This document shows positions 13,569-35,135 of a stretch of DNA of 39,350 nt, piece after piece. The stretch is from the NCBI GenBank assembly GCA_012719535.1, contig JAAYAC010000015.1:1-39350 (forward strand), given 5' to 3'. Each line of letters opens with the position of its first letter. Positions within the stretch are counted from its first letter, which is position 1. The notes below the pieces were generated by a model, which ran no database searches, had not been told where the DNA came from, and worked only from the letters and a program-made list of their open reading frames with translations. Both the position numbers and the translations under genes were made by a program. This DNA is from Syntrophomonadaceae bacterium (GTDB taxonomy: Bacteria > Bacillota > Syntrophomonadia > Syntrophomonadales > Syntrophothermaceae).

Positions 13569-13586
13569 TAAACGTGGAAAAATACG

Positions 13587-13858: not shown

Positions 13859-14026
13859 TTGAGAACTGTAAAAAAGGCAAACCCGAAACAAGAAGCTTTT
13901 CCGGAAGAGGTCAAGAACAAGATCATCGAGGCCATACACAGCCTCAAGTACGGCATAGTCAGTATCATTGTACAAGACGGACACGTCATTCAGATTGAGA
14001 AGCTGGAAAAGGAAAGGCTGAAATAG
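13859..14026 (+). CDS. YezD-family (DUF2292) small protein
   Basis: A 55-residue frame starts at TTG 13859, seven bases after GAGGAGGTGA (13844-13853), an excellent ribosome site. The core, IIEAIHSLKYGIVSIIVQDG then HVIQIEKLEKERL, matches the DUF2292/YezD pattern of a predicted alpha-beta-beta fold with a conserved KYG and a basic C-terminus. The function is unknown. As I recall, YezD-like genes often sit beside sulfate-assimilation or cysteine genes, and here cysK copy 2 follows 159 bases later, so the two may be co-transcribed. The call rests on the ribosome site and the family pattern. Confidence 0.82.
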   Translation: MRTVKKANPKQEAFPEEVKNKIIEAIHSLKYGIVSIIVQDGHVIQIEKLEKERLK

Positions 14027-14185
14027 AATATCGCGGGAAGTATTTCGGGCTAGAGGAAGGGCAAACTTTCCTTATTGGGCATTACACTGTAAGAGTCTGT
14101 GGTTCTGTAAAGTGGTGGGAGGTGAAACGCGCCGAGCGCAACTGGTAATTTAGGTACCAAAACATATCATTAGGAGGAATGCAAA

Positions 14186-15115
14186 ATGGCCAAAATAGCT
14201 AATAATCTTACTGATCTGATTGGGAGGACTCCTCTGCTGAGATTGCAGCGGGTGGCGGCCGGGTTGGGGGCGGACGTGGTGGTTAAGCTGGAATCTTTTA
14301 ATCCCGCTGGAAGTGTAAAAGACCGGATTGGCTACAGCATGATCAAGGATGCAGAAGAGAAAGGGTTAATTTCAAAGGATACCGTCATTATTGAACCTAC
14401 CAGTGGTAACACTGGAATCGCTCTGGCTTTCGTCGCGGCTGCCCGTGGGTACCGCTTGATTCTTACTATGCCGGATACTATGAGCATTGAGCGCCGCAAC
14501 CTGCTGAAGGCCTATGGGGCGGAACTGGTACTGACCCCGGGGGCCGAAGGGATGAAGGGCGCCGTAGCCAGAGCGGAAGAACTGGCGGCGGAAATACCTA
14601 ACTCCTTTGTTCCCCAGCAGTTTAAGAACCCGGCCAACCCCGCAATTCATCGGGTTACCACTGCGGAAGAGATATGGGAGGATACTGACGGTAAAGTTGA
14701 TATTGTGGTAGGTGGGGTCGGTACCGGTGGCACTATTACCGGTATCAGTGAAGTGATAAAAAGGCGGAAACCGAATTTTAGAACGGTAGCAGTGGAACCA
14801 TTTGATTCCCCGGTTCTGTCGGGAGGAAAGCCCGGCCCGCACAAGATTCAGGGGATTGGTGCCGGGTTTGTCCCGGATGTACTGAATCTCCAGGTGATTG
14901 ATGAAATATTTAAGGTAAAAAATGAAGAGGCGATAGCAACCGCCCGTCGTCTCGCCCGGGAAGAGGGGCTGCTGGTGGGTATTTCTTCCGGAGCGGCTGC
15001 CTTCGCTGCCCTACAAGTAGCCAGGAGACCGGAAAACAAGGGGAAACTGGTTGTAGCTATACTGCCGGATACCGGTGAAAGATACTTGAGTACCGAGTTA
15101 TTTCAAGAGCCGTAA
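14186..15115 (+). CDS. cysK: Cysteine synthase A, copy 2
   Basis: A full-length 309-residue CysK with PLP Lys45 in [11 protein letters not shown], the [12 protein letters not shown] substrate loop and [13 protein letters not shown]. It differs from copy 1 at about 43 positions by eye, scattered and mostly conservative, with all active-site motifs intact, so both copies are probably functional. ATG 14186 follows TAGGAGGA. It has no S-box; it lies downstream of the YezD-family gene and no strong promoter is evident in the gap. This suggests one cysK responds to SAM and the other to a different signal. Copy 1 has Cys84 where this copy has Ala. Confidence 0.95.
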
Positions 15116-16609: not shown

Positions 16610-19009
16610 ATGCAACGGGTTACTATGAAAGTAAAGGGAATGAGTTGCGCGGCGTGCGCTGCCCGCATTGAGAAGGTATTGAGCCGAGTGCCCGGGGTTA
16701 GCCAGGCCCAGGTCAACTTGGCCCTGGAACAGGCATCGGTGGATTTCAACCCCGGGGAGGTACAGGTTTCCGACCTGGTCGGACGGATAGAAAAGTTGGG
16801 ATACTCGGTACCTTCGGAAAAAGCTGAACTTAAGATCGAGGGCATGAGCTGTGCCGCCTGTGCGGCCCGGGTGGAAAAGGGCTTGAGTAAGTTGCCCGGA
16901 GTGGAAAAGGTGAACGTCAATCTGGCCACCGAAATAGCTACCGTAGAATACCAGCCGGCCCAGTTGGGCATCGAGGACCTGGTCGGGGCGGTGACCCGGG
17001 TTGGATACGGTGCTCGCCCGCTTTCCTCCACGCGGCCGGATACCGGGGAAGAGGATGAGCCGGGGGAACTGCGGCAAAGAAAGAGATTACTGGTATTTTC
17101 CGCGGTGTTATCTTTTCCTTTTATCATAGTGATGTTCGGCCATCTATTTGGTATGGCCGTTCCCGGATGGCTGACCTCGTTTACTACCCAACTGCTGCTG
17201 GCCACTCCCATACAGTTTATAGCCGGGTTTCCTTTTTACCGGGGAGCATACACTGCCCTGCGCAACGGTAGCGCCAATATGGACGTGCTGGTTGTCTTGG
17301 GGACTAGCGCCGCTTACCTGTACAGCGTGGGGGCGGCGTACTTTACCCGACACCCTCACCTGTATTTTGAGGTCAGCGCCCTTTTAATTACCTTAATATT
17401 GCTGGGCAAGTACCTGGAATCCCTTGCCAAGGGCAGAACCTCTGAGGCCATTCGGAAGCTGATTGGCTTACAGCCCAAAACCGCTCGGGTCATCCGTGGC
17501 GGAGAGGAGCTGGAGGTTCCGGTCACCGAAGTTGCGGTGGGAGACACGGTGATAGTACGTCCCGGCGAGCGAATTCCGGTGGACGGAAAGGTTGTGGAGG
17601 GGTACTCCGCCGTGGATGAATCGATGCTGACCGGGGAAAGTGTACCCGTGGACAAGCAAACCGGGGATTCGGTATCCGGAGCGACGGTCAACAAATTTGG
17701 GGTTCTTAAGGTGAAAGCCACCCGGGTAGGGCGTGATACTGTACTGGCCCAGATTATCAGAGTGGTCGAGGAGGCTCAGGGATCGAAGGCGCCTATTCAG
17801 AGGCTGGCTGATGTGGTGGCAGGCTACTTTGTCCCGGTGGTGGTGGCGATAGCGGCCGCAACTTTTGCCGTCTGGTACTGGGGTATCGATGCCGGCAATT
17901 TCTCCCGGGCGTTGCTCAACGCCACCGCAGTATTGGTTATTGCCTGCCCATGCGCCATGGGCTTGGCCACCCCCACTTCTATTATGGTAGGCACCGGTCG
18001 GGGGGCGGAAAACGGAATTTTGATTCGCGGAGGAGAGCACCTGGAAAGGACTCACCGGATAAATACGGTGGTGTTGGATAAGACGGGTACCATTACTACG
18101 GGCGAATTGCAGGTTGCAGATATGATAACCGCCGAACGGTATGCGAACCAGAAAAACCAATTATTGAACTGGGCGGCGCAGGTTGAGAAACAATCGGAAC
18201 ACCCGGTGGCCCAGGCCATTGTCCGGGGAGCCCTGGAACGCGTGCCCGGGTTGACCGTGGCAGAACCCGCGGAATTTACCGCTGTTCCCGGCAAAGGGGT
18301 GAGAGCCGTCCTGGAGGGAAAGAAGATTCTAATTGGTACCCGCAGGTTTTTGCAGGAGGAAGGCGTGGACCTGAAACCCCTTCTGCCAATGGTAGATGAA
18401 ATGGAAGCAGAAGGAAAGACCACTGTGCTCATGGCGGTAGACCAGGTGGTTGCGGCCGCCATCGCAGTTGCGGACTCTGTGAAGGAACACTCGGCTGAAG
18501 CCATACGGGAACTAAGAAACCTCGGCATCGATGTATGGATGATAACCGGAGACAACCGGCGAACTGCAGCGGCTATCGCTGAGCAGGTAGGGATTGATAA
18601 CGTGCTGGCGGAAGTGCTGCCGGAGGATAAAGCGCGGGAGGTACAAAGGCTGCGCGATGAAGGACGTATTGTCGCCATGGTGGGGGATGGGATTAACGAT
18701 GCCCCGGCTCTGGCCATGGCCGATGTGGGCATAGCTATGGGCACGGGCACTGATGTAGCCATGGAAGCGGCTGATATTACACTCATGCGAGGAGACCTGC
18801 GGGCCATAGTTACGGCCATTCGTCTCAGTAAAGCCACGATGCGCAACATCAAACAGAACCTGTTTTGGGCGTTTGTCTACAACACGGTGGGGATTCCGCT
18901 AGCGGCGGCGGGACTTCTGAGCCCGGTGTTAGCGGGAGGAGCCATGGCCTTAAGTTCAGTTTCGGTGGTCAGTAACGCCTTGAGGCTTAAGCGGGTAAGG
19001 TTGACCTGA
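16610..19009 (+). CDS. copA: Copper-translocating P1B-type ATPase with two HMA domains
   Basis: An ATP-driven Cu(I) exporter in the cytoplasmic membrane. Two N-terminal heavy-metal-associated domains each carry GMSCAAC (Cys13/16 and Cys81/84). Membrane helices follow, then the TGES actuator motif, the membrane CPC motif ([10 protein letters not shown], near residues 445-447), the phosphorylation site DKTGTIT (Asp near 490), SEHPVA in the nucleotide domain and [10 protein letters not shown]. It is 799 residues, full length. The motif set is the P1B-1 copper pattern. ATG 16610 follows GATCGAGGA. A near-identical copy of its last ~150 bases recurs at 38810. No csoR or copZ was seen beside it. 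Confidence 0.96.
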
Positions 19010-19054
19010 AAAGGAACTGGCTTGCAGGTTCCTATGTGGGGAGGGCATTAATTG

Positions 19055-20491
19055 ATGCGGAAGCATGTCATAAAGCAGGTGCTGAACCTCAGGGGTATGA
19101 CCTGTAGTAACTGCGAGACCAGAATTGAAAGGGCGTTACGCAGGATTCCCGGGGTGCGCCGGGTGAAGTCCAGTTATCCCCGGTCAATGGTTGAGGTGGA
19201 ATTTGACAAACGGCAGGTATCATTGTCTCAACTCAAAGAAATCATCGAAGACCTCGACTACCAGGTGGTTGCCGGCTCCTCGCTCCGGCCGGGAAACGAC
19301 ATTCGGGGTTTTCTGGGTTTTCTGGTAGTAGTAATCGCTTTGTACCTGGTGCTCAAGAATACCGTAGGATTGAATTTCTTTCCCCAGGTGAATCAATCCA
19401 TGGGTTTGGGGCTACTGTTTTTGGCAGGACTTTTGACCTCGGTCCATTGTCTTGCCATGTGCGGGGGAATCGTTCTTTCTCAGACCACCTGTAACCAAGA
19501 GCCGACCTCAGTGGGGGCTTCGAACTCCGGGTGGCGGGCCAGCTTTTCGTACAATCTTGGTAGGGTAATATCTTATACTCTGATTGGCGGGCTGGCGGGT
19601 ATGCTGGGCGCCACGGTCAGTTTTTCCGGCACTGCCCGGGGAACGGTAGCCGTTATAGCGGGGATATTAATGCTGGTGATCGGGCTTAACATGCTGGGGC
19701 TGTTTAGTTGGACCCGCCATATACCCTTGCATATGCCTCGTTTTCTGGGTACGGTACTATTGCGTCTGCAGAGCGGGCAGCGACCTCTTTATATTGGCCT
19801 TGCCAACGGCCTAATGCCGTGCGGGCCTCTTCAGGCGATGCAGCTTTACGCCCTGGGCACGGGAAGCTTCCTGGCTGGGGCTGGTGCCATGCTTGTCTTT
19901 GGACTGGGGACCGTTCCCCTGCTCTTTGGCTTTGGGGCCTTGAATTCCCTGCTCAGCCAGCGGTTTACTCGAGGGATGCTGAAAGCCAGTGCGGTTCTAG
20001 TAAGTGTGCTGGGGCTGGTAATGGTGTCAAGAGGGTTGGCGCTCTCCGGCGTGGTGTCCGGGTTAGATTCGTTCGTTACCAAAGCCGACGCGGCTCCCAT
20101 TGCGCAGGTACAAAACGGAGTGCAGGTTGTTCGAACTGTAGTCGGGGACCAATCCTACAGTCCCAGGGTGCAGGTGCTTCAGAAGGGTATGCCGGTTCGA
20201 TGGATAGTTGACGCCAAGTCTTTGAATGGCTGCAATAATCCGATAACCATCCCCAAGCTGGGAGTTGAGAAACAGCTATCACCGGGAGAAAACGTAATTC
20301 AGTTTACCCCGCATGAGGAAGGAGTGCTGACCTATGCGTGCTGGATGGGAATGATCACCGGCAGCTTTCGGGTAGTTGGCGACATCAAGAAGGTTAGCAG
20401 TGAAGATATCGATAAGTTTGTGAAAGAAGATAAGGCCGCTAACGCCGCAAGAGGCGGGGGGTGCTGCGGGCCAACACCTCCCAAGTTTTAG
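19055..20491 (+). CDS. HMA - SafE-like membrane domain - cupredoxin fusion protein
   Basis: Three modules in one 478-residue protein. Residues about 5-70 are an HMA domain with MTCSNC (Cys17/20). About 85-330 is a six-helix-type sulfite exporter/SafE-like membrane domain with LLTSVHCLAMCGGIVLS and GLANGLMPCGPLQAMQLYA. About 345-450 is a cupredoxin-like domain with SYSPRVQVLQKGMPVRWIV, GCNNPITIP and YACWMGMITGSFRV. The C-terminal GGGCCGP is a further Cys pair. Related fusions are known in Firmicutes copper loci and are thought to move or deliver copper. The ATG at 19055 is taken with GGGGAGGG upstream; the adjacent TTG at 19052 is an alternative. It lies 45 bases after copA, probably co-transcribed. 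Confidence 0.85.
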   Translation: MRKHVIKQVLNLRGMTCSNCETRIERALRRIPGVRRVKSSYPRSMVEVEFDKRQVSLSQLKEIIEDLDYQVVAGSSLRPGNDIRGFLGFLVVVIALYLVLKNTVGLNFFPQVNQSMGLGLLFLAGLLTSVHCLAMCGGIVLSQTTCNQEPTSVGASNSGWRASFSYNLGRVISYTLIGGLAGMLGATVSFSGTARGTVAVIAGILMLVIGLNMLGLFSWTRHIPLHMPRFLGTVLLRLQSGQRPLYIGLANGLMPCGPLQAMQLYALGTGSFLAGAGAMLVFGLGTVPLLFGFGALNSLLSQRFTRGMLKASAVLVSVLGLVMVSRGLALSGVVSGLDSFVTKADAAPIAQVQNGVQVVRTVVGDQSYSPRVQVLQKGMPVRWIVDAKSLNGCNNPITIPKLGVEKQLSPGENVIQFTPHEEGVLTYACWMGMITGSFRVVGDIKKVSSEDIDKFVKEDKAANAARGGGCCGPTPPKF

Positions 20492-20504
20492 GCGGCGGAT
20501 TCCG

Positions 20505-20642
20505 GTGGATAACTTGGCAGTTGCCCAAGTATCCAACGGTAAGCAGCGGGTAAGAATAAAGGTCACTGATGAGGGATTTGTACCGAATCAAACCGCGTGG
20601 TGGGGCCGGATCGTGCTGTGGTTAAAGGCTTGGCAGGGGTAA
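20505..20642 (+). pseudogene. Truncated cupredoxin-domain remnant
   Basis: The frame GTG 20505 to TAA 20640 reads ...VSNGKQRVRIKVTDEGFVPN and then QTAWWGRIVL before ending. This matches the first strand pair of a cupredoxin domain (compare NGVQVVRTVVGDQSYSP in the upstream gene) but lacks the copper-ligand half. There is no ribosome site or start of its own. It begins 14 bases after the fusion gene stops, so it is probably the rest of a lost second cupredoxin domain or gene. Confidence 0.55.
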
Positions 20643-20741
20643 GAAAAGCCCGGTGTAACTACTAAAATTTCTTATAGATGACAAAACCCATGGGATTAGT
20701 CATGCATAGTTTCTAGGCACCCGGCTGACTAGATAACTGGA

Positions 20742-20788
20742 GGCCAGGGAGATTGGACCCGCAGGGAACGCTCTCCCCGGCCTTTGTT
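20742..20788 (+). other. Stable hairpin upstream of the CoA-ligase gene
   Basis: Twelve-base arms, AGGCCAGGGAGA and TCTCCCCGGCCT with one G-T/mismatch position, enclose a 19-base loop, followed by TTGTTCTT. It could terminate transcription from the copper locus or act as a leader structure. Confidence 0.45.
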
Positions 20789-20855
20789 CTTGGTACGGGC
20801 GGGTAACTCTACCCATGACAGAGCCTGGTCTTAATTGGGAAAGGAGAAATGAGCT

Positions 20856-22193
20856 ATGGAAAATACCTACTGGGACACGGAGATCGAGACCATGAGCCAA
20901 GACAGGCTTCGCGCTTACCAGCTTGCCAGATTGTCCGAGACCGTGTTACGGGCCTACCATGGGTCCGTGTACTATCGAAGGATAATGGATGAAAAGGGGA
21001 TTCATCCTCACCAGGTACGATATCTGGAAGACCTGGAACGGTTTCCATTTCTAAATAAGCAAATAATACGGGAGAGCCAAGAAAGGCAGCCGCCCCTGGG
21101 TGACCTGGTAGCCGTATCCGAGACGGAGATAGTGTATACTGCTCTATCCAGCGGCTCAACCGGGGTGCCCACGGCTTCCCCCTTTACCCGGACGGACTTC
21201 GACGAGTGGATGGATTACGAAGCCCGTCTCTACTGGTCTACGGGAATGCGACCAGCCGACAGGTACGTTCACGCCATCAGTATGAGCCTATTCTGCGGGG
21301 GGCCGGTGGTGCTCGGGGCTCAGCGGCTGGGGGCTTTAACCATTCACGCCGGGACGCTGCCCGCAGAGAGGCTTCTGGCTATCTTCAGCCAATTTCAACC
21401 AACCTGCTTTTCCACAACGCCCACCTATGCCTGGCATTTAGGAGAAGTAGCTCAACAGGAGGGGTGGGACCCACGATCTGATTTCGCTATCCGGCGCATC
21501 TATGTTTCAGGTGAGCCGGGGGGTTCCATTCCCGCCACCCGGCGGGCCATTGAGGAACTTTGGGGAGCTCAGGTCTTTGATAAGTATGGTATATCCGACA
21601 TTTTTGGGGCTTGCGCCGGTACCTGCACGGAGCAGGATGGTCTGCACCTGGCGGAAGACCATGTGCTGGCTGAGGTCATTGAAGTAGGGGGAACCCAGCC
21701 GGTGCCGGAAGGGAAACCGGGTGAGTTGGTACTAACCTCGTTGCGTAAACGAGCTCGTCCCATGATTCGATTCCGCACCGGCGACATAGTTACCATTACC
21801 AGAGAGCCCTGCCGGTGCGGGCGGACTCATCTAAGGCTTACGGGAATCTACGGGAGGGTAGATGACATGCTGGTCATTAAAGGTGTCAACGTCTTTCCCA
21901 GCGACATCGAGAGCGTGCTGCGGGACATTAAAGAATTGGGGGGTGAGTATGAAATAGTTATTACCCGGGAAAAGCATCTAGATCAGGTGGCCCTGCGGGT
22001 GGAGGCAGAGGCTGCACCCGCCGCGTTTCCAGTAATAGAAAGACAAACGCAGGAACGTATCAAACAGAAGCTGGGTATAACCGTGAAGGTAACGGCAATT
22101 CCGGTGGGAGCATTGCCTCGGCAAGAGCACAAGACTCGCCGGGTCAAGGATCTGCGCTCGGAAGTATGGAGCCAACCGGCCTACACCCTTTAA
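20856..22193 (+). CDS. Phenylacetate-CoA ligase-like (PaaK family) AMP-forming ligase
   Basis: A 445-residue adenylate-forming enzyme of the PaaK family, which activates aryl or alkyl acids to CoA thioesters. Seen are the P-loop-like LSSGSTGVPTASPF (about residues 96-109), YGISDIFGACAG, the hinge region FRTGDIVTITREPCRCGRT and the C-terminal RVDDMLVIKGVNVFPSDIE. A late Lys in EHKTRRVKD is the expected catalytic lysine region. Substrate cannot be read from sequence; phenylacetate is only the family default. ATG 20856 is preceded by AAAGGAGAA. A VOC protein, an ABC importer, a QueG-like protein and a DUF1847 protein follow on the same strand, which suggests uptake and activation of an organic acid. 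Confidence 0.9.
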   Translation: MENTYWDTEIETMSQDRLRAYQLARLSETVLRAYHGSVYYRRIMDEKGIHPHQVRYLEDLERFPFLNKQIIRESQERQPPLGDLVAVSETEIVYTALSSGSTGVPTASPFTRTDFDEWMDYEARLYWSTGMRPADRYVHAISMSLFCGGPVVLGAQRLGALTIHAGTLPAERLLAIFSQFQPTCFSTTPTYAWHLGEVAQQEGWDPRSDFAIRRIYVSGEPGGSIPATRRAIEELWGAQVFDKYGISDIFGACAGTCTEQDGLHLAEDHVLAEVIEVGGTQPVPEGKPGELVLTSLRKRARPMIRFRTGDIVTITREPCRCGRTHLRLTGIYGRVDDMLVIKGVNVFPSDIESVLRDIKELGGEYEIVITREKHLDQVALRVEAEAAPAAFPVIERQTQERIKQKLGITVKVTAIPVGALPRQEHKTRRVKDLRSEVWSQPAYTL

Positions 22194-22208
22194 GGAGGCT
22201 TGATTAAC

Positions 22209-22664
22209 GTGTCTATAGTCAAGACCATTGATCACATCTCGATTGTAGTAAAGGAGCTCGAGCTGGCGGTAAGGCATTTTACGCAACTGCTGGGGGGAGA
22301 AGTCCTGTTCACTCGCGATATAGAAAAACTGGGAGTGCGGATGGCGTTCATCCGGTTGGGGGACCGCCTGATTAGCATCGAACAACCGACCCGGCCCGGC
22401 CCGTTCGCCGATGTGTTGGCTAAGAGGGGGGAGGGGGTTCACCACATCGGATTATCCGTGCACAGTCTTGGCGAGGCGCGGGAACGCCTAGTGAAGTTGG
22501 GGATTAAAGGAGTCAACGAGACTGCTGATGACGAGCGTGAGGAATTGCTGATTATGCCCCGCGATGGTCTGGGGATTCTGTGGCAATTGATTGAGTGGAA
22601 GGGGCCCTGCGGCGATTCTTTCGAGAATCGTCTGGCGTACTCCCGCCGAAGCTTGTACCGGTAG
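22209..22664 (+). CDS. VOC-superfamily (glyoxalase/methylmalonyl-CoA epimerase-like) protein
   Basis: A 151-residue vicinal-oxygen-chelate fold protein with two beta-alpha-beta-beta-beta modules. Probable metal ligands include His in TIDHISIVV, Glu in LISIEQPT, His in GVHHIGLSV, and an acidic residue near the C-terminus. The layout resembles methylmalonyl-CoA epimerase, which acts on a CoA thioester; with a CoA ligase just upstream, a CoA-ester substrate is plausible but unproven. GTG 22209 is preferred because AAGGAGG (22192-22198) is 10 bases upstream; the in-frame TTG at 22200 is too close. It begins 15 bases after the ligase stop. Confidence 0.85.
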   Translation: MSIVKTIDHISIVVKELELAVRHFTQLLGGEVLFTRDIEKLGVRMAFIRLGDRLISIEQPTRPGPFADVLAKRGEGVHHIGLSVHSLGEARERLVKLGIKGVNETADDEREELLIMPRDGLGILWQLIEWKGPCGDSFENRLAYSRRSLYR

Positions 22665-22798
22665 GCCCTACTCGTCAAACATCCAGAATAGCAGGCCAAC
22701 AACCTGGCGGGTGCTACTGTAGTCTTTCGGCAGGCTGGAGCATAGCCCGGCCTGGAGGATAATCGAGAATTCGGGAATAAAAGCAGGAGGAATGTTCC

Positions 22799-23881
22799 GT
22801 GAGAAGGATAGAGAATTGGCGAAACGTTTTAGTTGTGCTAACGTTGGCTACCCTGGTACTGGTGGCGGTCGGCTGCGGGGTCAAATCCTCCCAAACCACC
22901 AGTACCCCGTCCGAAGCGCCCCAAACGGCTACTAAATTGAAGGTAGGTTATTCCGCGGGCGGTGGCAGCCTGTTGTCATTTATTGCCCAGGACCAGGGCC
23001 TTTTCGAAAAAGAAGGTCTTGATGTTGAACTGATCCCGTTTACCAGTTCCGCCGATGGCCTGAATGCCTTGAACACCGGTAAAATCGATGTCGGTATTTC
23101 TTTTGGCACCGGTGGTCCGCTGACATTTATCAGCAAGGGGGCCGACTTCGTAATCATTGGCGGGCACCTGTCGGGTGGCCACCCAATAATCGCTCTGCCC
23201 GAGAAGGCTGGTCAATTTAAGTCAATTCAGGATTTCAGAGGCAAGACCATAGCCACGCCTCGTCTCTATACCTCCGACGTTGTGTGGAGAGGAGCCCTGG
23301 TGAAAGCGGGGTTTGATCTCAGTAAAGATGTTAATATCATCGAAATGAAGAACCCTCAGGCAGTGCTGGAAGCCGTCAAGTCCGGAAAGGTTGACGCTGG
23401 TATCGGAGCCAGCTCAATTTACTTGAAATCTAAAGAATCGGGATTGGCTATTGTAGGTTGGAGCAATGACCTGTTTCCGAATCATCCCTGCTGCCGGGTG
23501 GTAGCCAGAGGGAAGGACGTCAAGGCGAATCCTGAAACTTATCGGGCCTTCTTGAGGGCGTTGATACAGGCCGAGAAAATCAAGCAGGACGACCCGGAAC
23601 TGGCGGTGGATGTTAACAAGCGTTTCCTCAAGATTGACGATAAACTGGCCCGGGACTTTACTCTGGAGCCACACCAAATCATCAATGTGGATCCAAACCG
23701 CAAGGGTGTGGTTCAGATGTGGAAACAAATGAACGATATCGGGTACATCAAATCCGATCTGGACATCAATCAGCACATTAACACTGATTTGTATAAGCAG
23801 GCATTGGAGCAGCTTGCGAAGCAAAACGCGTCCGACGAGTTTTACAAGGAATTGAAGCAGAGGTTTGATAAGCAGAACTAG
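22799..23881 (+). CDS. ABC transporter substrate-binding lipoprotein (NMT1/SsuA-TauA type)
   Basis: A 360-residue periplasmic-type binding protein anchored outside the membrane as a lipoprotein: hydrophobic signal at residues 10-25 and lipobox VAVGC with Cys26. The mature part has the SsuA/TauA/ThiY pattern LKVGYSAGGGSLLSFIAQDQ, FEKEGLDVELIPF, ALNTGKIDVGISF and GKTIATPR. This subclass binds sulfonates, taurine, pyrimidines or aromatic acids; the ligand here is not predictable. GTG 22799 follows GCAGGAGGAA. The permease gene starts 22 bases after its stop. In a sulfur-rich region, an organosulfur ligand is one possibility; the ligase upstream suggests an organic acid as another. Confidence 0.9.
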   Translation: MRRIENWRNVLVVLTLATLVLVAVGCGVKSSQTTSTPSEAPQTATKLKVGYSAGGGSLLSFIAQDQGLFEKEGLDVELIPFTSSADGLNALNTGKIDVGISFGTGGPLTFISKGADFVIIGGHLSGGHPIIALPEKAGQFKSIQDFRGKTIATPRLYTSDVVWRGALVKAGFDLSKDVNIIEMKNPQAVLEAVKSGKVDAGIGASSIYLKSKESGLAIVGWSNDLFPNHPCCRVVARGKDVKANPETYRAFLRALIQAEKIKQDDPELAVDVNKRFLKIDDKLARDFTLEPHQIINVDPNRKGVVQMWKQMNDIGYIKSDLDINQHINTDLYKQALEQLAKQNASDEFYKELKQRFDKQN

Positions 23882-23903
23882 TAAGTGGAAAGAAGGGGCG
23901 AAG

Positions 23904-24671
23904 ATGGGGGGGTTAGTGAGAAACATAAACAGCTACCGGGGCACCCTGGTTATGATAGCGATGCTGCTGGTGCTGTTTGAATTGGCCACGGATATCTTCC
24001 ACTGGCTGGATCCTATTCTATTCCCGGGGTTTTCCAAGATTGGGCCGGCGTTGCTCGAGTCTCTTCCCCAACTCAAGGAGGGACTCATTAGCTCGCTGGG
24101 GCTATTAGTGCCAAGCTATCTGCTGGCCCTGACCACCGGTGTGGGCATGGGGTTGGTGATAGGCAGGTATGAACCTTTGCGTAAGAACCTGATGCCGATA
24201 TTCCACGGTATCAGCCCCATTCCCCCGACGCTGTATATACCTTATGCCCTGGCTATTCTCCCTACGTTCTGGCTGTCATCCACGTTCATAATCTTTATCG
24301 GTTCTCTGTGGCCTATTCTGATGGGTACCATTCATGGGGTGGTGTTACTGGAAGGCCGGTACCTGGACAATGCGCGTGCCCTTGAACTTAAGGGGTGGAA
24401 GATGCTGACCCGAATAATTTTACCGGCCGCCTCCCCCATGATATTCAACGGAGCGGGGATTGCTCTTGTCTTCGCTTTTATCCTGCTGACGGTAGCCGAG
24501 ATGTTCGGAGCCAAGTCCGGTTTGGGATACTTCATCCAGCTTAACGCGGATTTCTCTGAATACGGCAGGGTGTTGGCCGGTCTCATCTTCATGTCCACTT
24601 TTATAGTCCTGGTCATGGGGCTTTTTGAGGCTATTCAACGCCGCTCCTTGCACTGGACCAATAAAAGATAG
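23904..24671 (+). CDS. ABC transporter permease (SsuC/TauC type)
   Basis: A 255-residue BPD-type inner-membrane permease with about six helices. The EAA loop that docks on the ATPase reads NARALELKGWKMLTRIILPA. ISPIPPTLYIPYALAIL resembles the conserved central segment of nitrate/sulfonate/taurine permeases. ATG 23904 after GAAGGGG is preferred to an in-frame TTG at 23865, which would lie inside the lipoprotein gene. It is the membrane partner of the lipoprotein just upstream and of the ATPase at 25660. Confidence 0.9.
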   Translation: MGGLVRNINSYRGTLVMIAMLLVLFELATDIFHWLDPILFPGFSKIGPALLESLPQLKEGLISSLGLLVPSYLLALTTGVGMGLVIGRYEPLRKNLMPIFHGISPIPPTLYIPYALAILPTFWLSSTFIIFIGSLWPILMGTIHGVVLLEGRYLDNARALELKGWKMLTRIILPAASPMIFNGAGIALVFAFILLTVAEMFGAKSGLGYFIQLNADFSEYGRVLAGLIFMSTFIVLVMGLFEAIQRRSLHWTNKR

Positions 24672-24682
24672 GAGGTACTCCG

Positions 24683-25588
24683 ATGAAGGATTTAACTGAT
24701 TCGTTGCGGGAACAAGCGTTGGCGCTGGGAGCCGATCTCTTCGGCGTGGCGGATGCCAAGGACCTGGATGGTTATTTTACCTCACCTCACCGGCCGAAAG
24801 ACCTGCTGCCTGAGGTGAGAAGTATCGTGGTTGTGGCGTTGCATATACCCGACGGGGTTCTAGAAGCGCAAAAGAACGGCATAACCAATTACTCCTATAA
24901 CGTCTACGGATATGCGTATTTGAACCGGGAACTGGATGCTGTTGCCTACCGCCTGACCATGTTTCTGGAAAAGCACGGTTGGCAGGCGCTGCCTATTCCC
25001 GCCCGGGGCAGCCATTACTGGGAGCCAAAAAAATACTATGGTCCTCTTTCTTTCCGGCATGCGGCGGTGGCAGCGGGCCTGGGCCAGTTTGGGTGGAGCG
25101 GGTTGGTACTGACTCCGGAATTCGGCCCCCGTCAACGGTTTGTCGCCGTACTGACCGACGCTCCCTTAAAGGCTTCTCCCCCACTGGCCGAAAACCCCTG
25201 TCAGAAATGTTATCAATGTATCAAGAACTGCCCAGCGGGCGCCATTCGAAAAGAGGCGTGGCAGGCTACTCTTGGTGAGCGAACCTATACTTACGGGAAG
25301 ATTGACGGTGACCGATGCTGGTGGGTGGCTAGAGGTTTGACCACTAAGGCCTGGCCGGGCGCGCCATTTAACCCGTCAGTTGCAGTTACCAAACCCGGTG
25401 ATATTACGGCAGAAGAGAAGTTTGAGGTTCTTTGGGAAAAAAGAGACGCGCGTCTTAGGCTAAGCGAACACGACGAAGGAACGTACGGGGCGACTTTGTG
25501 CGGGCGCTGCATGATATTTTGCCAGGCTGGACACGATGCAATGCGGGCCAGGTTAGCCAGGGCTAAAGAGAACGAACCAGCCGATTGA
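24683..25588 (+). CDS. QueG-like double [4Fe-4S] protein
   Basis: A 301-residue Fe-S protein similar to epoxyqueuosine reductase and reductive-dehalogenase-type redox modules. ALGADLFGVADAKDL opens the fold, and RHAAVAAGLGQFGWSGLVLTP is the characteristic QueG segment. A classical ferredoxin set follows, CQKCYQCIKNCP (from about Cys172), with further cysteines in GDRCWW and LCGRCMIFC for a second cluster. It is probably not QueG itself: it lacks the HEAT-repeat tail and sits between the permease and ATPase genes of one ABC importer. It may reduce the imported compound. ATG 24683 follows TAGGAGG, 11 bases after the permease stop. Confidence 0.82.
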   Translation: MKDLTDSLREQALALGADLFGVADAKDLDGYFTSPHRPKDLLPEVRSIVVVALHIPDGVLEAQKNGITNYSYNVYGYAYLNRELDAVAYRLTMFLEKHGWQALPIPARGSHYWEPKKYYGPLSFRHAAVAAGLGQFGWSGLVLTPEFGPRQRFVAVLTDAPLKASPPLAENPCQKCYQCIKNCPAGAIRKEAWQATLGERTYTYGKIDGDRCWWVARGLTTKAWPGAPFNPSVAVTKPGDITAEEKFEVLWEKRDARLRLSEHDEGTYGATLCGRCMIFCQAGHDAMRARLARAKENEPAD

Positions 25589-25659
25589 AAATGGCTAATA
25601 AACGTTCCTGTACACAACATGAAATTGCCGAAGGATGAGACGGAGAGGGGGATAGCGGA

Positions 25660-26475
25660 ATGGAGAAACTGGTGTTGGACAATGTGTACTTTGATTACGG
25701 AACGGGCTCGGTACTGACTGGTCTGGATTTAACAATTGGTACGGGTGAGTTTGTGGCTATTCTGGGAGCCAGCGGTTCTGGCAAGAGTACCTTGCTCCGG
25801 CTCTTGGCGGGGTTGGCTCAGCCTCAAAGGGGGAGGGTGCTGCTCGATGGAAAACCAATTGTGGGCCCCGGTTTGGACAGGGGAGTGGTCTTTCAAGATT
25901 ACAGCCTTTTCCCGTGGTTAACCACTGAGCAAAATATAACCCTCGCTCTCGGACAGGTATTGGGCCAGTCCAAGGATATCAACGAAGTAAGATCAATTGC
26001 GCGTGAATACCTTGATCTGGTTGGTTTAGGGGGGACGTACAAAAAGTATCCCGGGGAGCTTTCCGGAGGAATGCGCCAGCGGGCCGCCATCGCCCGGGTC
26101 TTTGCTGTTGGTTCACCGGTACTGTTGCTGGATGAACCCTTTGGCGCGTTGGATCCCATAACCCGCGCCCGGCTCCAAGACCTCCTGTTACACCTGTGGA
26201 CAGAAGCCGAGCAACGCCGTACAGTTGTTTTCGTTACCCATGATGTGGAAGAGGCTATTCTGATGGCGGACCGGGTAGTGTTGCTGGGAGCTTCTTCCGG
26301 GAGAGTTAAGGAACAAATATCAGTTTTGCTTCCCAGGCCGCGATCCCGGGAAAGCTTATATCGAGATGAACGCTTTCACAACCTCCGTAATTACCTAATT
26401 GACCTGCTGAACGAAGATATTATAGCTTCCTTGGGTGAGGGAACCTGGATTATGCAGCCTGCGGAAGGAATCTAA
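25660..26475 (+). CDS. ABC transporter ATP-binding protein (SsuB/TauB type)
   Basis: A 271-residue ATPase powering the importer encoded upstream. Walker A is GASGSGKST (residues 36-44), the Q-loop is in VVFQDYSLFPWLT, the signature is LSGGMRQR, Walker B is VLLLDEPFGALD and the switch is VFVTHDVEEA. All are intact. It is closest to the nitrate/sulfonate/taurine subfamily, matching the lipoprotein and permease. ATG 25660 follows GGAGAGGGGGA. The Fe-S gene interrupts the usual permease-ATPase order. Confidence 0.93.
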   Translation: MEKLVLDNVYFDYGTGSVLTGLDLTIGTGEFVAILGASGSGKSTLLRLLAGLAQPQRGRVLLDGKPIVGPGLDRGVVFQDYSLFPWLTTEQNITLALGQVLGQSKDINEVRSIAREYLDLVGLGGTYKKYPGELSGGMRQRAAIARVFAVGSPVLLLDEPFGALDPITRARLQDLLLHLWTEAEQRRTVVFVTHDVEEAILMADRVVLLGASSGRVKEQISVLLPRPRSRESLYRDERFHNLRNYLIDLLNEDIIASLGEGTWIMQPAEGI

Positions 26476-26549
26476 TCCAGGAAGAGCAGGGTACACTATT
26501 GAAGCATAACCAAGCGCAAGTGAGTTTTATTAGAGAGGAGAGTTAACGC

Positions 26550-27230
26550 ATGTCAGATTTAAATGTACCCCCGCAATGCCATCTATGCACCACCACTAAT
26601 TGTTACCGCAAGAATGCCAGCTTCCCGTCGATATGCATCACTGCCGCCGGTATCGTTGAACTGGATTCAGTACGTGAACGCTATCGTACTGATGTCGAAG
26701 CGAACCGGGTCCTTCGCGTAGCGGCTCAAACGGAAGCCCGGGCTTACGGCAAAATGACGCGAGTAGAAGAGACCATAGAGTTTGCCAGGGAAATGGGCTA
26801 CCGCAAAATCGGTATTGCCTCGTGCGTTGGACTAGCCCGGGAGGCCAACCTTTTTGGGCGAATGCTATCCCGCAACGGTTTTGACGTATGCGGGGTGATC
26901 TGCAAAGTGGGAGCCATAGATAAGACCGAATTAGGGATTCCCGAAGAGCACAAGCTTAAGCCCGGCTGCTTTGAAGCGGCCTGCAACCCGTTACTTCAAG
27001 CAGAACTCCTAAACAGGGAGAAGACTGATTTTAACGTCATGATCGGGCTTTGCGTTGGTCATGACTCTTTGTTTATCAAACATTCAAACGCCCCGGTGAC
27101 TGTATTAATAGCCAAGGATCGCGTATTGGTACACAACCCGGCGGCTGCTTTGTACGCATCCGGATTCTACTACCAGCACTTGATGCAAGTTGAGCCGAAC
27201 AAGATTAGTCCCGAACCCTTAGATTGTTGA
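26550..27230 (+). CDS. DUF1847 metal-binding domain protein
   Basis: A 226-residue protein with an N-terminal Cys cluster, PPQCHLCTTTNCYRK, followed by FPSICIT. Later motifs GYRKIGIASCVGLAREA, GVICKVGAIDK, GCFEAACNPLLQAELLN and GLCVGHDSLF carry more conserved cysteines. This is the DUF1847 pattern, predicted to bind metal; no reaction is established. ATG 26550 follows GAGAGGAGAG. It closes the importer run (74 bases after the ATPase gene) and lies on the same strand, so it probably acts on the same substrate or cofactor. Confidence 0.85.
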   Translation: MSDLNVPPQCHLCTTTNCYRKNASFPSICITAAGIVELDSVRERYRTDVEANRVLRVAAQTEARAYGKMTRVEETIEFAREMGYRKIGIASCVGLAREANLFGRMLSRNGFDVCGVICKVGAIDKTELGIPEEHKLKPGCFEAACNPLLQAELLNREKTDFNVMIGLCVGHDSLFIKHSNAPVTVLIAKDRVLVHNPAAALYASGFYYQHLMQVEPNKISPEPLDC

Positions 27231-27338
27231 CCGGAGTCCGAAAAAGGCATAAAAGGTATAGTATGTTTATTAGTAAAATAATCGAGAGGCTGCTCTCTAT
27301 CTTGAGGGTGGGGCCATTGAATCTCGGTTTACAGGGCG

Positions 27339-27631
27339 ATGTGCCTGCGGAGCGAATTCGTCTATTCCTATTGCAATCAAAAGTGCAATGTAATCATCCC
27401 TGGGGGAGGGGAACTGATTTTGGCCATGACCAACGATGACGAAGAGGTTTTTGCCATTCCCCGGTCACAGTTTGAAAGCGTAGCAGAGGGCTGGAGGCTA
27501 CTCACAAGGTTGGGGTAGCCAGGATTCCTACTCCCTTCTTCGAGATTCGCAGCAAACCGGAATTCCCGAGTACCTATGAAGAACTGGACAGGTATTGTGG
27601 CATCATACCGGAAGAAGTCGGGCAGCCTTAA
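27339..27631 (+). pseudogene. Frameshifted gene of unknown family
   Basis: Frame A runs ATG 27339 to TAG 27516 (59 residues, including NDDEEVFAIPRSQFESVAEG). Frame B, shifted, continues the apparent coding sense from about 27490 as LEATHKVGVARIPTPFFEIR and then PEFPSTYEELDRYCGIIPEE, ending at TAA 27629. Both halves look like real protein with balanced codon use, so a single indel near 27490-27510 has probably split one gene. I do not recognise the family. A further in-frame piece from ATG 27263 may belong to it. Confidence 0.5.
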
Positions 27632-27663
27632 AGAATCTCAAATGAAAAACTGCCATTGAAATG

Positions 27664-27695
27664 AAAAAATGCAGAGATAGCCTCTGCATTTTTTT
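27664..27695. terminator. Bidirectional intrinsic terminator
   Basis: Thirteen-base arms AAAAAATGCAGAG (27664-27676) and CTCTGCATTTTTT (27682-27694) around a 5-base loop. The T run on the plus strand serves the genes to the left; the A run serves the minus-strand Cys-rich gene to the right. Confidence 0.92.
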
Positions 27696-27788
27696 GTCAC
27701 TCCTATAAAACTACCGGCAGTCCCTGTTCTCCCTAACAGCAAAAGTTGTGACTGGAATGAACATTACCAATACTTATACGGGATTGCC

Positions 27789-27914
27789 TCAACTGCACGA
27801 ACGACAACTTTCACACAGACAACTTTCGCAATCCTCGGAGCTAAGTTCCTCGCTGTCCTCCAGTTCGCACCCGCATTTGGAGCATCTCGGACTCTCGCTA
27901 CTGGAATCAGACAT
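27789..27914 (-). CDS. 41-residue Cys-rich small protein
   Basis: On the minus strand ATG (27914-27912) follows AAAGGGAGGTG at ideal spacing and opens a 41-codon frame ending TGA at 27789. The protein has nine Cys, with CSKCGCELED early and CESCLCESCRSCS at the end, separated by an acidic Ser/Glu stretch. The pattern suggests two metal-binding knuckles (zinc or Fe-S/Cu). The plus-strand 100-codon frame across it is its Ser/Leu-rich shadow. A bidirectional terminator lies 95 bases downstream. I know no matching named family; the call rests on the ribosome site, composition and terminator. Confidence 0.72.
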   Translation of the reverse strand: MSDSSSESPRCSKCGCELEDSEELSSEDCESCLCESCRSCS

Positions 27915-28301
27915 AATCGCACCTCCCTTTTGTGTTACTAGTATACCCGCGGAAGCAAAACAATATTTATGGGTTTACTCAAGTTTAGACAGGCACTTCT
28001 ATTCAAGTAGGGATATGTTATTGACTACGAACACCAGTAACGGGAAGTGAAGATAGTGGTAAAACAGTAATTAACAGCGGTTAAGGCGGTGCGAGGAGAT
28101 TTGCGTGGGTGGGTAACAACTCCTAGTCACCGGCAAGTATTCCCTGACATGGACCAATGCAAAAGATATGAGAAGAAGTGGAGGTATCTTCAATAACTCC
28201 CTTTGTCCCTTTCCCTGGCAAGAAAAATAGTAAGGGCAGATTAAAAATGTGATACACCCTAAATTAAAGAAACTTACATGAAGCTTCCTTTGGGGGATCT
28301 C
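27915..28301. other. Gene-poor interval
   Basis: It contains the likely promoter of the minus-strand Cys-rich gene (TATACT complement near 27939-27944, no clear -35). Nothing else could be assigned: no RNA structure, repeat or ribosome-sited frame was convincing on either strand. Confidence 0.4.
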
Positions 28302-31473: not shown

Positions 31474-31490
31474 TTAGTCACATACAGATA

Positions 31491-31620
31491 CTCATCCAGA
31501 GCGTCACAGGGACTGGCCCTGTGAAGCCCGGCAACCGGCTTGATGCACGGTGCTAACTCCTGCGGAATGATTTCGAAAGATGAGGTTGCCAATGCCTCTT
31601 TGCCGGAAGGGGCTTTTATT
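31491..31620 (+). promoter_or_regulatory. SAM-I (S-box) riboswitch 3 with terminator
   Basis: P1 is CTCATC (31491-31496) with GATGAG (31579-31584). The core has AGCGTCACAGGGACTGG, GTGAAGCCCGGCAACC and GGTGCTAACTCC; P2 varies in a compensatory way (CAGGG/CCCTG). The terminator GCCTCTT (31594-31600)/AAGGGGC (31607-31613) has one G-T pair and is followed by TTTTATTTT, weaker than the other three. It now precedes a metX remnant and thiI. Confidence 0.92.
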
Positions 31621-31705
31621 TTCGAAAAATCCAGGAGGGGGGAGGGGCATGTACAAAAGATGGGGCCGGACTCGTCGTCACGGAACTGGAAAGGTGTACA
31701 ATCAG

Positions 31706-31841
31706 GCGGATACCACTTGACTTTGGCCGGTTTTCGGCCCCGTCGAAATAGCCGGCGAAACATACGGTAGTCTAAGTGAAACCCGAGATAATGTGGTCTT
31801 GATTCTGCGCGCATTAACCGGGGACGCACACGCTGCGGGAA
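31706..31841 (+). pseudogene. metX N-terminal remnant (distinct paralog)
   Basis: From about 31721 the frame reads [20 protein letters not shown] and then [17 protein letters not shown]. This aligns with the homoserine O-acetyltransferase N-terminus and with residues 52-86 of intact MetX at 36803. A TGA at 31718-31720 interrupts it, and homology stops near 31841, before the catalytic parts. Its DNA differs widely from the intact metX, so it descends from a different copy. Its position right after an S-box is the expected place for metX. Confidence 0.8.
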
Positions 31842-31932
31842 GTACATGCGAGTATTTGTTTACGGATTGTACTAAGAGTCGCTTCCCGGGAAAAGACTTA
31901 CGGGTTAGAAGGGAAAAAGGCGGGGTTAGGAC

Positions 31933-33108
31933 ATGTATGACGCGGTTCTGGTAAGATATGGGGAAGTAGGACTCAAGGGAGCGAATAAATGGGTCTTTGA
32001 ATCCATCCTTCTCGAGAACATCCGCATCGCTTTGCAGGGGCTGAAAAACGTCACAGTGGTAAAGAGGTCCGGGCGCATACTGGTTCAAACCAACGGTGGT
32101 CCGAACGAGGTGCTGACCAGGCTGGCAAGAGTATTCGGAATAGTATCTATCAGCCCGGTTATAATTGTCAATTCTGAAATGGAGGAAGTGATGACTGCAT
32201 GTTCTGCCCTGGTCGGCTTTCTGCGGGGGAAAATCAAGACGTTCAAAGTGGAAACCCGCCGGGCCCATAAGGCCTTTCCTTACACCTCGCCCGAAATAAG
32301 CAGGATAGTGGGGGGGTACTTGCTTCGGAGGTACCCGGCCCTGCAGGTAGATGTCCACGCCCCGGATGTCACGATATACATCGAGCTCAGGGCCGGAGAA
32401 ACGTACGTGTTTTTTGATGTCATACCGGGCCCGGGTGGTCTGCCAGTGGGTGCAAGCGGCAAGGGGCTCCTGCTCCTGTCCGGGGGACTGGACAGCCCGG
32501 TAGCAGGTTGGATGGCAATGAAAAGGGGTATCAAGCTGTCGGCTATTCATTTTCATAGTTTTCCTTTTACGAGTGAGCGTTCCAGGCAAAAGGTAATTGA
32601 CCTGGGCAAGGTGCTAGCCTGGTACAATCAAGGCATAACGCTTCACGTCGTCAACTTTACCCCCATCCAAGAGACAATAATGGCACGATGCCCTGAAAAA
32701 TACCGGGTGACAATATTAAGGCGAATGATGTTTCGTATCGCCGAAGAAATTGCAGCCGGTCAACGGATTCAGTGCCTGATTACCGGGGATAGCGTGGGAC
32801 AGGTGGCCAGCCAGACCCTGGAAAGTATGAGCGTAATCGGCAGTGCCATACGGATGCTGCTGCTGAGGCCGCTGGCCGGGCTGGACAAAACCGAGATCGT
32901 TGAAATCGCCAAGAAAATAAGGACTTACAGGATTTCTATATTGCCCTACGAGGATTGCTGTTCCATGTTTGTTCCCAAACACCCGGCCACCAAACCCAAA
33001 CTGGACATCATAGTTGAAGCCGAGAGTAAAGTCGACTGGGAACCCTTACTGCGAGAGGCGATTGAGACGGTCGAGACACTGGACATTGATGCCACCTGGC
33101 TTCCGTAG
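31933..33108 (+). CDS. thiI: tRNA 4-thiouridine synthase ThiI
   Basis: ThiI adenylates U8 of tRNA and, with a cysteine desulfurase, makes 4-thiouridine; in some bacteria it also serves thiamine thiazole synthesis. The order is an N-terminal ferredoxin-like part with [17 protein letters not shown], a THUMP domain (to about residue 165, [12 protein letters not shown]), then the PP-loop [15 protein letters not shown]. The C-terminal rhodanese domain of E. coli ThiI is absent, as in most Firmicutes; EDCCSMF near residue 338 is a conserved Cys region. It is 391 residues. ATG 31933 follows a weak GGGGTTAGGA. Riboswitch 3 lies upstream and the NifS-type gene at 35136 probably supplies sulfur. Confidence 0.95.
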
Positions 33109-33162
33109 AGTACGGTTTTCGGCAAGACTGGCTTCCGGTCGTTCTTTAAGGGGGGGATAGGT

Positions 33163-34227
33163 TTGTTGAAAGACATATTTAAGAAGATTGATCAAGAACG
33201 AGAATTATCCAAGGAGGATATTGTCTGCCTGTTGGCCCTGAAAGACGAGCAGGAACTGGCCCGGCTTTACGACCGGGCGGATACGGTCAGGCAAAAGTAT
33301 GTGGGTGACGAAGTTCACCTGCGTGGCCTGATTGAGTTTTCCAACTACTGCAGGAAGAACTGCAACTACTGCGGCATCCGCAGGGGGAACCGTAAGCTAC
33401 AACGCTATCGTATGTCCGCTGAAGAAATACTGGCCACTGTGGCTGTGGCAGAGAGATTGGGGTACAAAACGGTGGTATTACAGTCGGGAGAGGATATGTA
33501 CTACACGGTGGGTAAATTGGTAGACATAATTAGGAGAATAAAGCAAGAGGCAGATGTAGCTATTACCCTGAGTATCGGAGAGCGATCCCGGGAAGAATAC
33601 GAGCGGCTGCACGAGGCAGGGGCGGATAGATTTCTAATACGTTTTGAAACCTCCAACCGCGAGTTGTACAGTAGGCTTCACCCTGATTCCGACTACGATG
33701 AGCGTATGCAGATTCTCGTCTGGCTAAAGGAAATCGGCTACCAGGTAGGGTCCGGAGTTATGATCGGACTGCCCGGCCAAACCCTTGAGGACCTGGCCAT
33801 GGATATACTGAAATTCAAAGAGCTGGACCTGGATATGGTAGGAGTGGGACCTTATATATGCCATGAAGAAACTCCCCTGGCCGGAAACGCGAATGGGACC
33901 GTGGAGATGACCTTCAAGGTTATAGCTCTCACCCGAATCGTAACCCGTGATGCTCATATTCCCGCTACCACCGCCCTTGCTACTCTCAGGCCGACTGATG
34001 GGCGAGAAAAGGCCCTGGAGCTGGGGGCGAATGTTGTAATGCCTAATGTTACCCCGGCGAAGTATCGCGCTCTGTATGAATTATATCCTGCCAAGGTCTG
34101 CATTGGGGAAGAAGCGGAGCAGTGCCAGGCGTGCATGCACGGGCGCATATATTCCTTGGGCCGTCCTATTAGCCAGGGCTATGGGCATTCTTTTAAGAGG
34201 GCCCACCTGCTGCCGCAATATGGTTAG
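33163..34227 (+). CDS. hydE: [FeFe]-hydrogenase maturation radical SAM protein HydE
   Basis: A 354-residue radical SAM enzyme. The SAM cluster motif CRKNCNYC (Cys63, 67, 70), within LRGLIEFSNYCRKNCNYCGI, is characteristic of HydE, which helps build the diiron subcluster of [FeFe]-hydrogenase. A second set, CIGEEAEQCQAC near residues 313-324, fits the C-x7-C-x2-C accessory cluster of HydE. GVMIGLPGQTLEDLA and ATTALATLRPTDGREKALE are further family segments. TTG 33163 follows AGGGGGGGA. hydF, hydG and hydrogenase genes are not in the window. A related role in another sulfur or thiazole pathway cannot be excluded because thiI and thiF-like genes flank it. Confidence 0.87.
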   Translation: MLKDIFKKIDQERELSKEDIVCLLALKDEQELARLYDRADTVRQKYVGDEVHLRGLIEFSNYCRKNCNYCGIRRGNRKLQRYRMSAEEILATVAVAERLGYKTVVLQSGEDMYYTVGKLVDIIRRIKQEADVAITLSIGERSREEYERLHEAGADRFLIRFETSNRELYSRLHPDSDYDERMQILVWLKEIGYQVGSGVMIGLPGQTLEDLAMDILKFKELDLDMVGVGPYICHEETPLAGNANGTVEMTFKVIALTRIVTRDAHIPATTALATLRPTDGREKALELGANVVMPNVTPAKYRALYELYPAKVCIGEEAEQCQACMHGRIYSLGRPISQGYGHSFKRAHLLPQYG

Positions 34228-35128: not shown

Positions 35129-35135
35129 AGTGCCA

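Follow-up and report, generated by a model that had tools for sequence, protein, structure and literature searches.

Gene content of the locus

The 39,350-nucleotide stretch analyzed here (the window) comes from a Syntrophomonadaceae bacterium (assembly GCA_012719535.1, contig JAAYAC010000015.1, positions 1 to 39,350) and contains a gene cluster built around an ATP-binding cassette (ABC) importer and an iron-sulfur protein related to QueG and RdhA. Seven open reading frames (ORFs), all on the plus strand, span positions 20856 to 27230 in the ORF list of the window. The first two encode a PaaK-like AMP-dependent coenzyme A (CoA) ligase (20856 to 22193; Pfam AMP-binding and AMP-binding_C_2) and a glyoxalase/methylmalonyl-CoA-epimerase-like VOC protein (22200 to 22664; Pfam Glyoxalase). 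They are followed by genes for a substrate-binding lipoprotein (SBP) of the NMT1/SsuA family (22799 to 23881; Pfam NMT1/THI5-like), the importer permease (23865 to 24671; BPD_transp_1), a QueG/RdhA-like two-[4Fe-4S] protein, predicted from a fold model to be a class III corrinoid-dependent reductase (24683 to 25588; weak Fer4 match), the importer ATPase (25660 to 26475; ABC_tran, NtrCD/TauB-like), and a DUF1847 protein (26550 to 27230; PF08901, 213 bits, E = 2.1e-63). An earlier, sequence-only reading had listed seven same-strand genes of these families, with the two-cluster protein placed between permease and ATPase genes, and the ORF positions and Pfam matches confirm both points. Its broad family labels also hold, but the finer names PaaK, SsuA, and QueG fall below curated cut-offs; the ligase, for example, reaches 290.5 bits against a cut-off of 646.3 for PaaK (TIGR02155).

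The ligase and VOC genes are 6 bp apart, and 134 bp separate the VOC gene from the SBP gene. From there on the cluster is compact: the SBP and permease genes overlap, and gaps of 11, 71, and 74 bp follow through the DUF1847 gene. At 27664 to 27694 on the plus strand, 434 bp past the DUF1847 gene, a perfect 13-bp hairpin (-18.2 kcal/mol, z = -5.35) sits in a T-rich context with a T run and is a plausible terminator of the unit. The sequence-only reading had named separate promoters and terminators as evidence that would speak against a single unit. A consensus scan gave 5 promoter-like sites against 7.5 expected and 14 terminators against 10.7, neither above shuffles, so we infer the unit from its spacing and conservation and not from promoters.

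Rfam searches over positions 20400 to 28300 at E ≤ 5 returned eukaryotic chance matches far under the cut-off and nothing else. A structured leader lies ahead of the PaaK-like gene (20700 to 20845; z = -2.38); 5 of 200 shuffles fold equally well, and it matches no Rfam family. Directly upstream of the cluster, within 16610 to 20491, are a gene for what we take to be a copper-type P-type ATPase and, after it, one for an HMA-DsbD_2-cupredoxin-like fusion with a Cys-rich tail.

The importer and the QueG-like protein form a conserved module

Full-length relatives of the QueG-like protein, 53 to 58% identical, occur in five of 398 genomes of the phylum, after which identity drops to about 40%. One of the five (G061) carries an in-frame stop, and the piece of it that was aligned is free of this stop. 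A profile from the alignment of four relatives and the window protein was scanned against 84,980 species genomes and recovered 29 loci. These belong to Moorella thermoacetica, Syntrophomonadaceae, other Bacillota, and rumen Lentisphaerota, and to Deltaproteobacteria (listed as Myxococcota in the tree), Spirochaetota, and Planctomycetota metagenome-assembled genomes (MAGs). With the window and two loci from Bacillota-phylum genomes (L073 and L074), we compared 32 loci, two of which (L095 and L121) are contigs of one genome.

In 21 of the 24 loci that have at least 3.5 kb upstream, the SBP, ATPase, and permease genes share the strand of the QueG-like gene and are no more than 4 kb away from it; the failing loci are L094, L113, and L117. 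The 21 loci span Bacillota, Lentisphaerota, Deltaproteobacteria/Myxococcota, Spirochaetota, and Planctomycetota, and the permease gene adjoins the QueG-like gene in other phyla as it does in the window. Among 53 loci of second-tier QueG-like proteins, 42 of which reach 3.3 kb or more in length, none has a permease, SBP, CysK, or MetY match. The importer and the QueG-like gene thus cluster beyond chance, and the module they form is almost certainly real. Pairwise identities of the QueG-like proteins also track those of the SBP, ATPase, and permease (r = 0.82, 0.91, and 0.96 over 20 loci; none of 2,000 permutations as high), a comparison made without three Moorella-type loci and one locus lacking an SBP match. 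Other Bacillota relatives have a different, distantly related importer, 25 to 45% identical to that of the window, which indicates that the QueG-like enzyme was paired twice with this importer superfamily.

The ligase and VOC genes do not cluster in this way. Matches to them occur in 1 of the 32 loci, the window itself, and in 0 of the 31 others. Six PaaK orthologs (51 to 56% identical) have no VOC, SBP, permease, QueG-like, or DUF1847 gene within about 7 kb (shorter on one side in L179). We therefore rejected both genes as parts of the module: the PaaK-like gene stands inside the apparent operon here, yet outside the conserved module, and the pair is a local addition. The single seven-gene pathway of the sequence-only reading is accordingly not borne out, and the co-occurrence of families, which it proposed as a check, extends to five genes, excluding PaaK and VOC. 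The core is the importer, its ATPase included, with the QueG-like protein; DUF1847, present in 8 of the 32 loci (the window and Lentisphaerota-type loci), joins it in the Lentisphaerota version.

In the tree, the QueG-like protein of the window sits on a long branch that is basal to the gut-type clade (support 90/81). A Planctomycetota MAG sequence (L107) nests among Spirochaetota (L106, L110, L113, and L119), pointing to transfer or binning error, and a 777-amino-acid open frame in L079 (G072:C8) gives QueG-like matches twice in tandem, so that two class III proteins may be fused in it. No record in the plasmid collection covers 80% of the QueG-like protein. Rfam searches of 17 relative loci at gathering thresholds gave a TPP riboswitch and two tRNAs and nothing more. 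With the promoter, terminator, and Rfam searches uninformative or empty, no shared regulator was found.

The QueG-like protein is predicted to be a class III corrinoid enzyme

We modeled the QueG-like protein (301 amino acids) with AlphaFold2 (AF2) from 27 aligned sequences. Mean predicted local distance difference test (pLDDT) was 75.8 and the predicted template modeling score 0.77, with a poor loop at residues 110 to 121; two of the five models were near pLDDT 75. The best structural match by VIA-align was QueG (5d0a; Z = 19.1, 2.9 Å, 214 aligned residues), followed by PceA (Z = 17.9, 3.7 Å, 219 aligned), NpRdhA (17.4), MMACHC (10.6), and CblD (7.8). QueG, PceA, NpRdhA, and MMACHC are all corrinoid proteins, and on this fold evidence the window protein is very probably a corrinoid enzyme as well.

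RdhA breaks a carbon-halogen bond and QueG reduces an epoxide, and the window protein can be assigned to neither. Its best NCBIfam match is RdhA (TIGR02486), which at 63.7 bits outscores the QueG label of the sequence-only reading (TIGR00276, 40.9 bits), and both matches are below their cut-offs of 160.35 and 200 bits. No protein of the window genome reaches the QueG cut-off. With RdhA it has in common the fold and the two-cluster ferredoxin region, but its N terminus (MKDLTDSLREQALALGADLF) shows no twin Arg and no twin-arginine translocation (Tat) signal, and its gene has no RdhB-like neighbor, the neighbors being permease and ATPase genes. With QueG it shares the fold and the G-x-x-Tyr position, but no C-terminal repeat domain was found in it, and the position of the catalytic Asp (Asp134 in Bacillus subtilis, Asp130 in Streptococcus thermophilus) is Y, H, Y, Y, G, and G in six family members.

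The family has conserved residues of its own. The first CxxCxxCxxxC motif (C173 to C183) is invariant, as are, among others, H54, Y70-S-Y-N73, R108, S123, R125-H126, and R150-Q-R152, of which S123, R125, H126, and R108 set it apart from RdhA. Y79 is invariant in all 27 rows and aligns in MAFFT with the Tyr of E. coli QueG (GRDY) and of the PceA-type protein 8q4h (GKSY). This Tyr has been reported as conserved and catalytic in class III cobalamin enzymes (PMC4646009). The curated cut-offs and active-site residues rule out both QueG and RdhA as its identity, and the model suggests instead a class III corrinoid reductase whose active site is distinct from theirs.

An invariant Cys-Cys pair in the binding protein

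The SBP, permease, and ATPase belong to the SsuABC/TauABC family, and all fall below named equivalog cut-offs; the SBP, for instance, scores 138.1 bits against 163.5 for SsuA (TIGR01728). The closest named importer families are SsuA, TauA, NtrB, TauC, and TauB. The SBP is distinguished by a vicinal Cys-Cys (H229-P-C231-C232-R233) that is present in 13 of 13 aligned relatives and in 6 of 6 more distant cluster SBPs, a count that leaves out L224, whose SBP match has three in-frame stops. Of 29 SBPs from a phylum search, 18 have the pair: all 11 that score over 150 bits and 7 of the 18 with lower scores. A vicinal Cys-Cys is missing from both TauA and SsuA of E. coli, and the pair aligns with a Cys-rich stretch of yeast THI5. 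The Cys-Cys may lie at or near the ligand pocket. The transporter is predicted to work in the import direction, with an organosulfur compound as its probable kind of substrate.

DUF1847 links the cluster to loci resembling type 1 mlp clusters

DUF1847 proteins score above the cut-off in 86 of the 398 phylum genomes (the search matched 89), and Cys 92, 118, 145, and 168 are invariant in 18 aligned rows. Among the matches listed for the predicted fold, the best by Foldseek is an aspartate racemase domain (E = 3.9e-4). VIA-align Z scores do not exceed 9.3 and go to many unrelated flavodoxin-like folds, B12-binding domains and Dph2 among them; no function was inferred from these. DUF1847 may act as a Cys-rich partner that holds a metal or cluster or passes sulfur on.

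We examined 24 DUF1847 neighborhoods, 14 from the phylum search and 10 of 13 from an earlier locus set. Five contain URO-D methyltransferase genes (L087, L183, L187, L190, and L191), and all of these except L087 also have CysK, MetY, or MetB. A permease and ATPase of the SsuA/TauA kind lie on the same strand as DUF1847 in L087, L183, L190, L191, and L084. Locus L248 combines DUF1847, the importer, methyltransferases, and RACE, and L183 has in addition radical S-adenosylmethionine (SAM) and NifH-like genes. Two Mlp methyltransferases, a corrinoid protein, and RACE are clustered in L087, L183, L190, L248, and L093. Downstream of the Moorella module are genes for RACE, a corrinoid protein, two URO-D proteins, a NifH-like protein, CysK, and a radical SAM protein. 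The Moorella contig L255-L256 (about 14 to 50 kb) carries a sulfur island with ATP sulfurylase, the module, mlp-like, NifH-like, and radical SAM genes, nitrogenase-like subunits, and sulfite reductase.

All 11 URO-D proteins of the related loci that pair DUF1847 with a Cys-Cys SBP have a His-x-Cys and a later aligned Cys. Kountz and Balskus describe this His-x-Cys...Cys as the signature of S/Se-methyltransferases in type 1 mlp clusters, which they assign to methyl-sulfur and methyl-selenium metabolism with MetY and CysK as partners (PMC10418091). The text of that paper mentions no DUF1847, QueG, or "ABC transporter". "DUF1847" appears in no paper of the literature collection searched, and none of the 15 papers listed, of 55 matching, combines "epoxyqueuosine reductase" with "sulfonate". 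Like type 1 mlp clusters, related loci thus combine two URO-D methyltransferases with a corrinoid protein, RACE, CysK, and MetY, but the window and the Lentisphaerota loci show no such methyltransferases in the available flanks.

Sulfur genes lie near the module in some loci, and most carriers lack ATP sulfurylase PF01747

The window outside the cluster is a sulfur and Fe-S region (3677 to 15115 and 31489 to 38622) with four SAM riboswitches and genes for NifS, MnmA, CysK, MetY, two MetB/MetC-type enzymes, a second CysK, ThiI, HydE, ThiF, a NifS-like protein, and MetX. On the plus strand, a SAM riboswitch precedes CysK (6700 to 7629) and the homocysteine synthase MetY (7869 to 9158) at 6506 to 9158. 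Another precedes the two MetB/MetC-type pyridoxal phosphate (PLP) enzymes (10039 to 12809, plus strand), and the second CysK, 86% identical to the first, lies at 14186 to 15115 on the same strand. The first CysK and MetY are the likely consumers of any sulfide released.

Seven loci from six genomes (L073, L074, L093, L094, L095, L121, and L104) have CysK no further than 1 kb from the QueG-like gene, and four of them (L073, L074, L094, and L104) have MetY no further than 5 kb from it; L104 also has an Rrf2 regulator gene there. The four CysK-type copies scanned (L093, L104, and the second copies of L073 and L075) all exceed the TIGR01139 cut-off, and both MetY copies scanned (L073 and L104) exceed that of TIGR01326.

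Among 14 carrier genomes, ATP sulfurylase (PF01747) is absent from 13, all but Moorella. Siroheme sulfite reductase (PF01077) is absent from 8 and nitrogenase-like PF00148 proteins from 5 (present in 9), the window genome lacking both. These absences suggest that carriers need an outside source of sulfur. A sulfur role for the module is probable.

Proposed function and alternatives

We propose that the module supplies sulfur under anaerobic conditions: a compound is imported, and a corrinoid enzyme then cleaves its C-S bond reductively. Taken as a whole, we regard this statement as evenly poised between right and wrong. The Cys-Cys lipoprotein and the SsuA/TauA-family importer would take up an organosulfur compound, which is most likely to be a small anion. 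The class III enzyme, its cobalt reduced to Co(I) through the two [4Fe-4S] clusters, would then cut the C-S bond reductively in the cytoplasm by analogy with RdhA and QueG, making it a candidate C-S bond-cleaving enzyme. The sulfide or thiol released would be captured by CysK or MetY; the lack of sulfite reductase in 8 of the 14 carriers favors these products over sulfite. Where a locus has methyltransferases, demethylation of a methyl-sulfur substrate may come first, a step for which the window has no genes. Of the two substrates that the sequence-only reading offered for a reductive route, an organosulfur acid fares better than an aromatic one, given the class III fold, the SsuA-family importer, and the sulfur surroundings.

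The proposed chemistry resembles that of IsrBHDK with SsuCAB in Rhodobacter capsulatus (PMC11423573) and of MarBHDK (PMC10418091), which achieve anaerobic sulfur assimilation by reductive C-S cleavage with low-potential Fe-S electrons; Isr also relies on import by an SsuA-type transporter. The catalyst differs. Isr and Mar use a nitrogenase-like HDK complex with NifDK-like PF00148 subunits and a radical SAM protein. The module has one protein of class III corrinoid type in this place, and PF00148 proteins are missing from the window genome. By the tests made, the module appears to belong to none of the QueG, RdhA, type 1 mlp, and Sec-assisted organometallic (SAO) systems.

Several observations weigh against this proposal. 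The main gap is that CysK/MetY adjacency is confined to Bacillota and one Lentisphaerota locus (L104): the available flanks of the other rumen Lentisphaerota loci and of all Deltaproteobacteria, Spirochaetota, and Planctomycetota loci contain neither gene. Neither the window nor any of the 17 relative loci searched has a SAM riboswitch ahead of the module. The methyltransferase genes are absent from the window genome, where no Mlp relative appears at E ≤ 1e-20. The identity correlation is also expected from vertical descent, and shared descent alone could suffice to produce it. Corrinoid binding is predicted from the fold, in an AF2 model of moderate confidence. Finally, CysND-type sulfurylase and phosphoadenosine phosphosulfate reductase lay outside the absence searches, and eight carrier genomes, reached through their loci, are of uncertain completeness.

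An alternative within sulfur metabolism is that the importer carries an alkyl- or arylsulfonate and that sulfite is then split off by the class III enzyme (R-SO3- to R-H + SO3 2-). The closest named importer families fit this version, two-electron removal of an anion is the RdhA type of reaction, and in R. capsulatus IsrBHDK with SsuCAB releases sulfite anaerobically from isethionate (PMC11423573). We consider it unlikely, as the carriers without PF01077, the window genome among them, could not reduce sulfite by a known siroheme enzyme and the invariant Cys-Cys is absent from E. coli TauA and SsuA.

The Cys-Cys could instead be a metal ligand in a relative of the SAO importer, with the corrinoid enzyme demethylating or reducing an organometal or organometalloid. 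The SBP, permease, and ATPase belong to the same ABC family as SaoX, SaoP, and SaoA and match them in NCBIfam, SBP relatives reaching 59.5 bits; SAO SBPs bear Cys or Sec, and the copper ATPase-like and HMA-DsbD fusion genes lie directly upstream in the window. But these matches are far under the cut-offs (SaoX 31.6 against 300 bits, SaoP 73 against 295, SaoA 202.7 against 360), and none of the seven genes was identified as MerB-, SaoL-, SaoC-, or SaoT-like. Sulfur assimilation genes, moreover, recur next to relatives, and the DsbD fusion, the sole upstream metal gene used as a query, was not seen in relative loci. Such a role is decidedly unlikely.

We regard it as quite improbable that the QueG-like protein is a CblC/MMACHC-like processor or activator for imported cobamides or corrinoid methyltransferases. 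MMACHC and CblD are among its fold matches, and RACE, corrinoid, and methyltransferase genes follow it in Moorella, but QueG and RdhA are far better matches and include the Fe-S domain. Most loci with the QueG-like gene also lack methyltransferase genes, and SsuA-family importers are not known to carry cobamides. Acquisition of methyl-selenium instead of sulfur, the role assigned to the majority of type 1 mlp clusters (PMC10418091), would suit the type-1-mlp-like organization of related DUF1847/Cys-Cys SBP loci; it is very improbable given the lack of an Mlp relative in the window genome and the CysK/MetY neighbors (selenium genes were outside the search). That PaaK, VOC, and the Fe-S protein activate and reduce an aromatic acid after its import, as the close, co-directional ligase and VOC genes might suggest, is scarcely credible when both are missing from every other module locus and PaaK orthologs elsewhere stand without any module gene.

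Implications

If the proposal of corrinoid-dependent C-S cleavage is right, a corrinoid enzyme would join the catalysts that cleave C-S bonds reductively, and DUF1847 would gain a context. More tentatively, and as a prospect that falls short of even, the QueG-like proteins might join dehalogenases and QueG as a third branch, by function, among class III cobalamin enzymes: a corrinoid C-S bond reductase, fed by a new Cys-Cys kind of SBP, with which strict anaerobes lacking sulfate and sulfite reduction could assimilate the sulfur of a compound taken up from outside. Such a branch would do with B12 what Mar and Isr do with nitrogenase-like enzymes. Knowledge is still partial of how fermenting anaerobes of gut and sediment, which work without oxygenases, acquire sulfur from organic compounds. 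The module would point to a sulfur source of rumen bacteria and, judging by isolate names, likely of other gut bacteria, with Moorella thermoacetica as a cultivable host.

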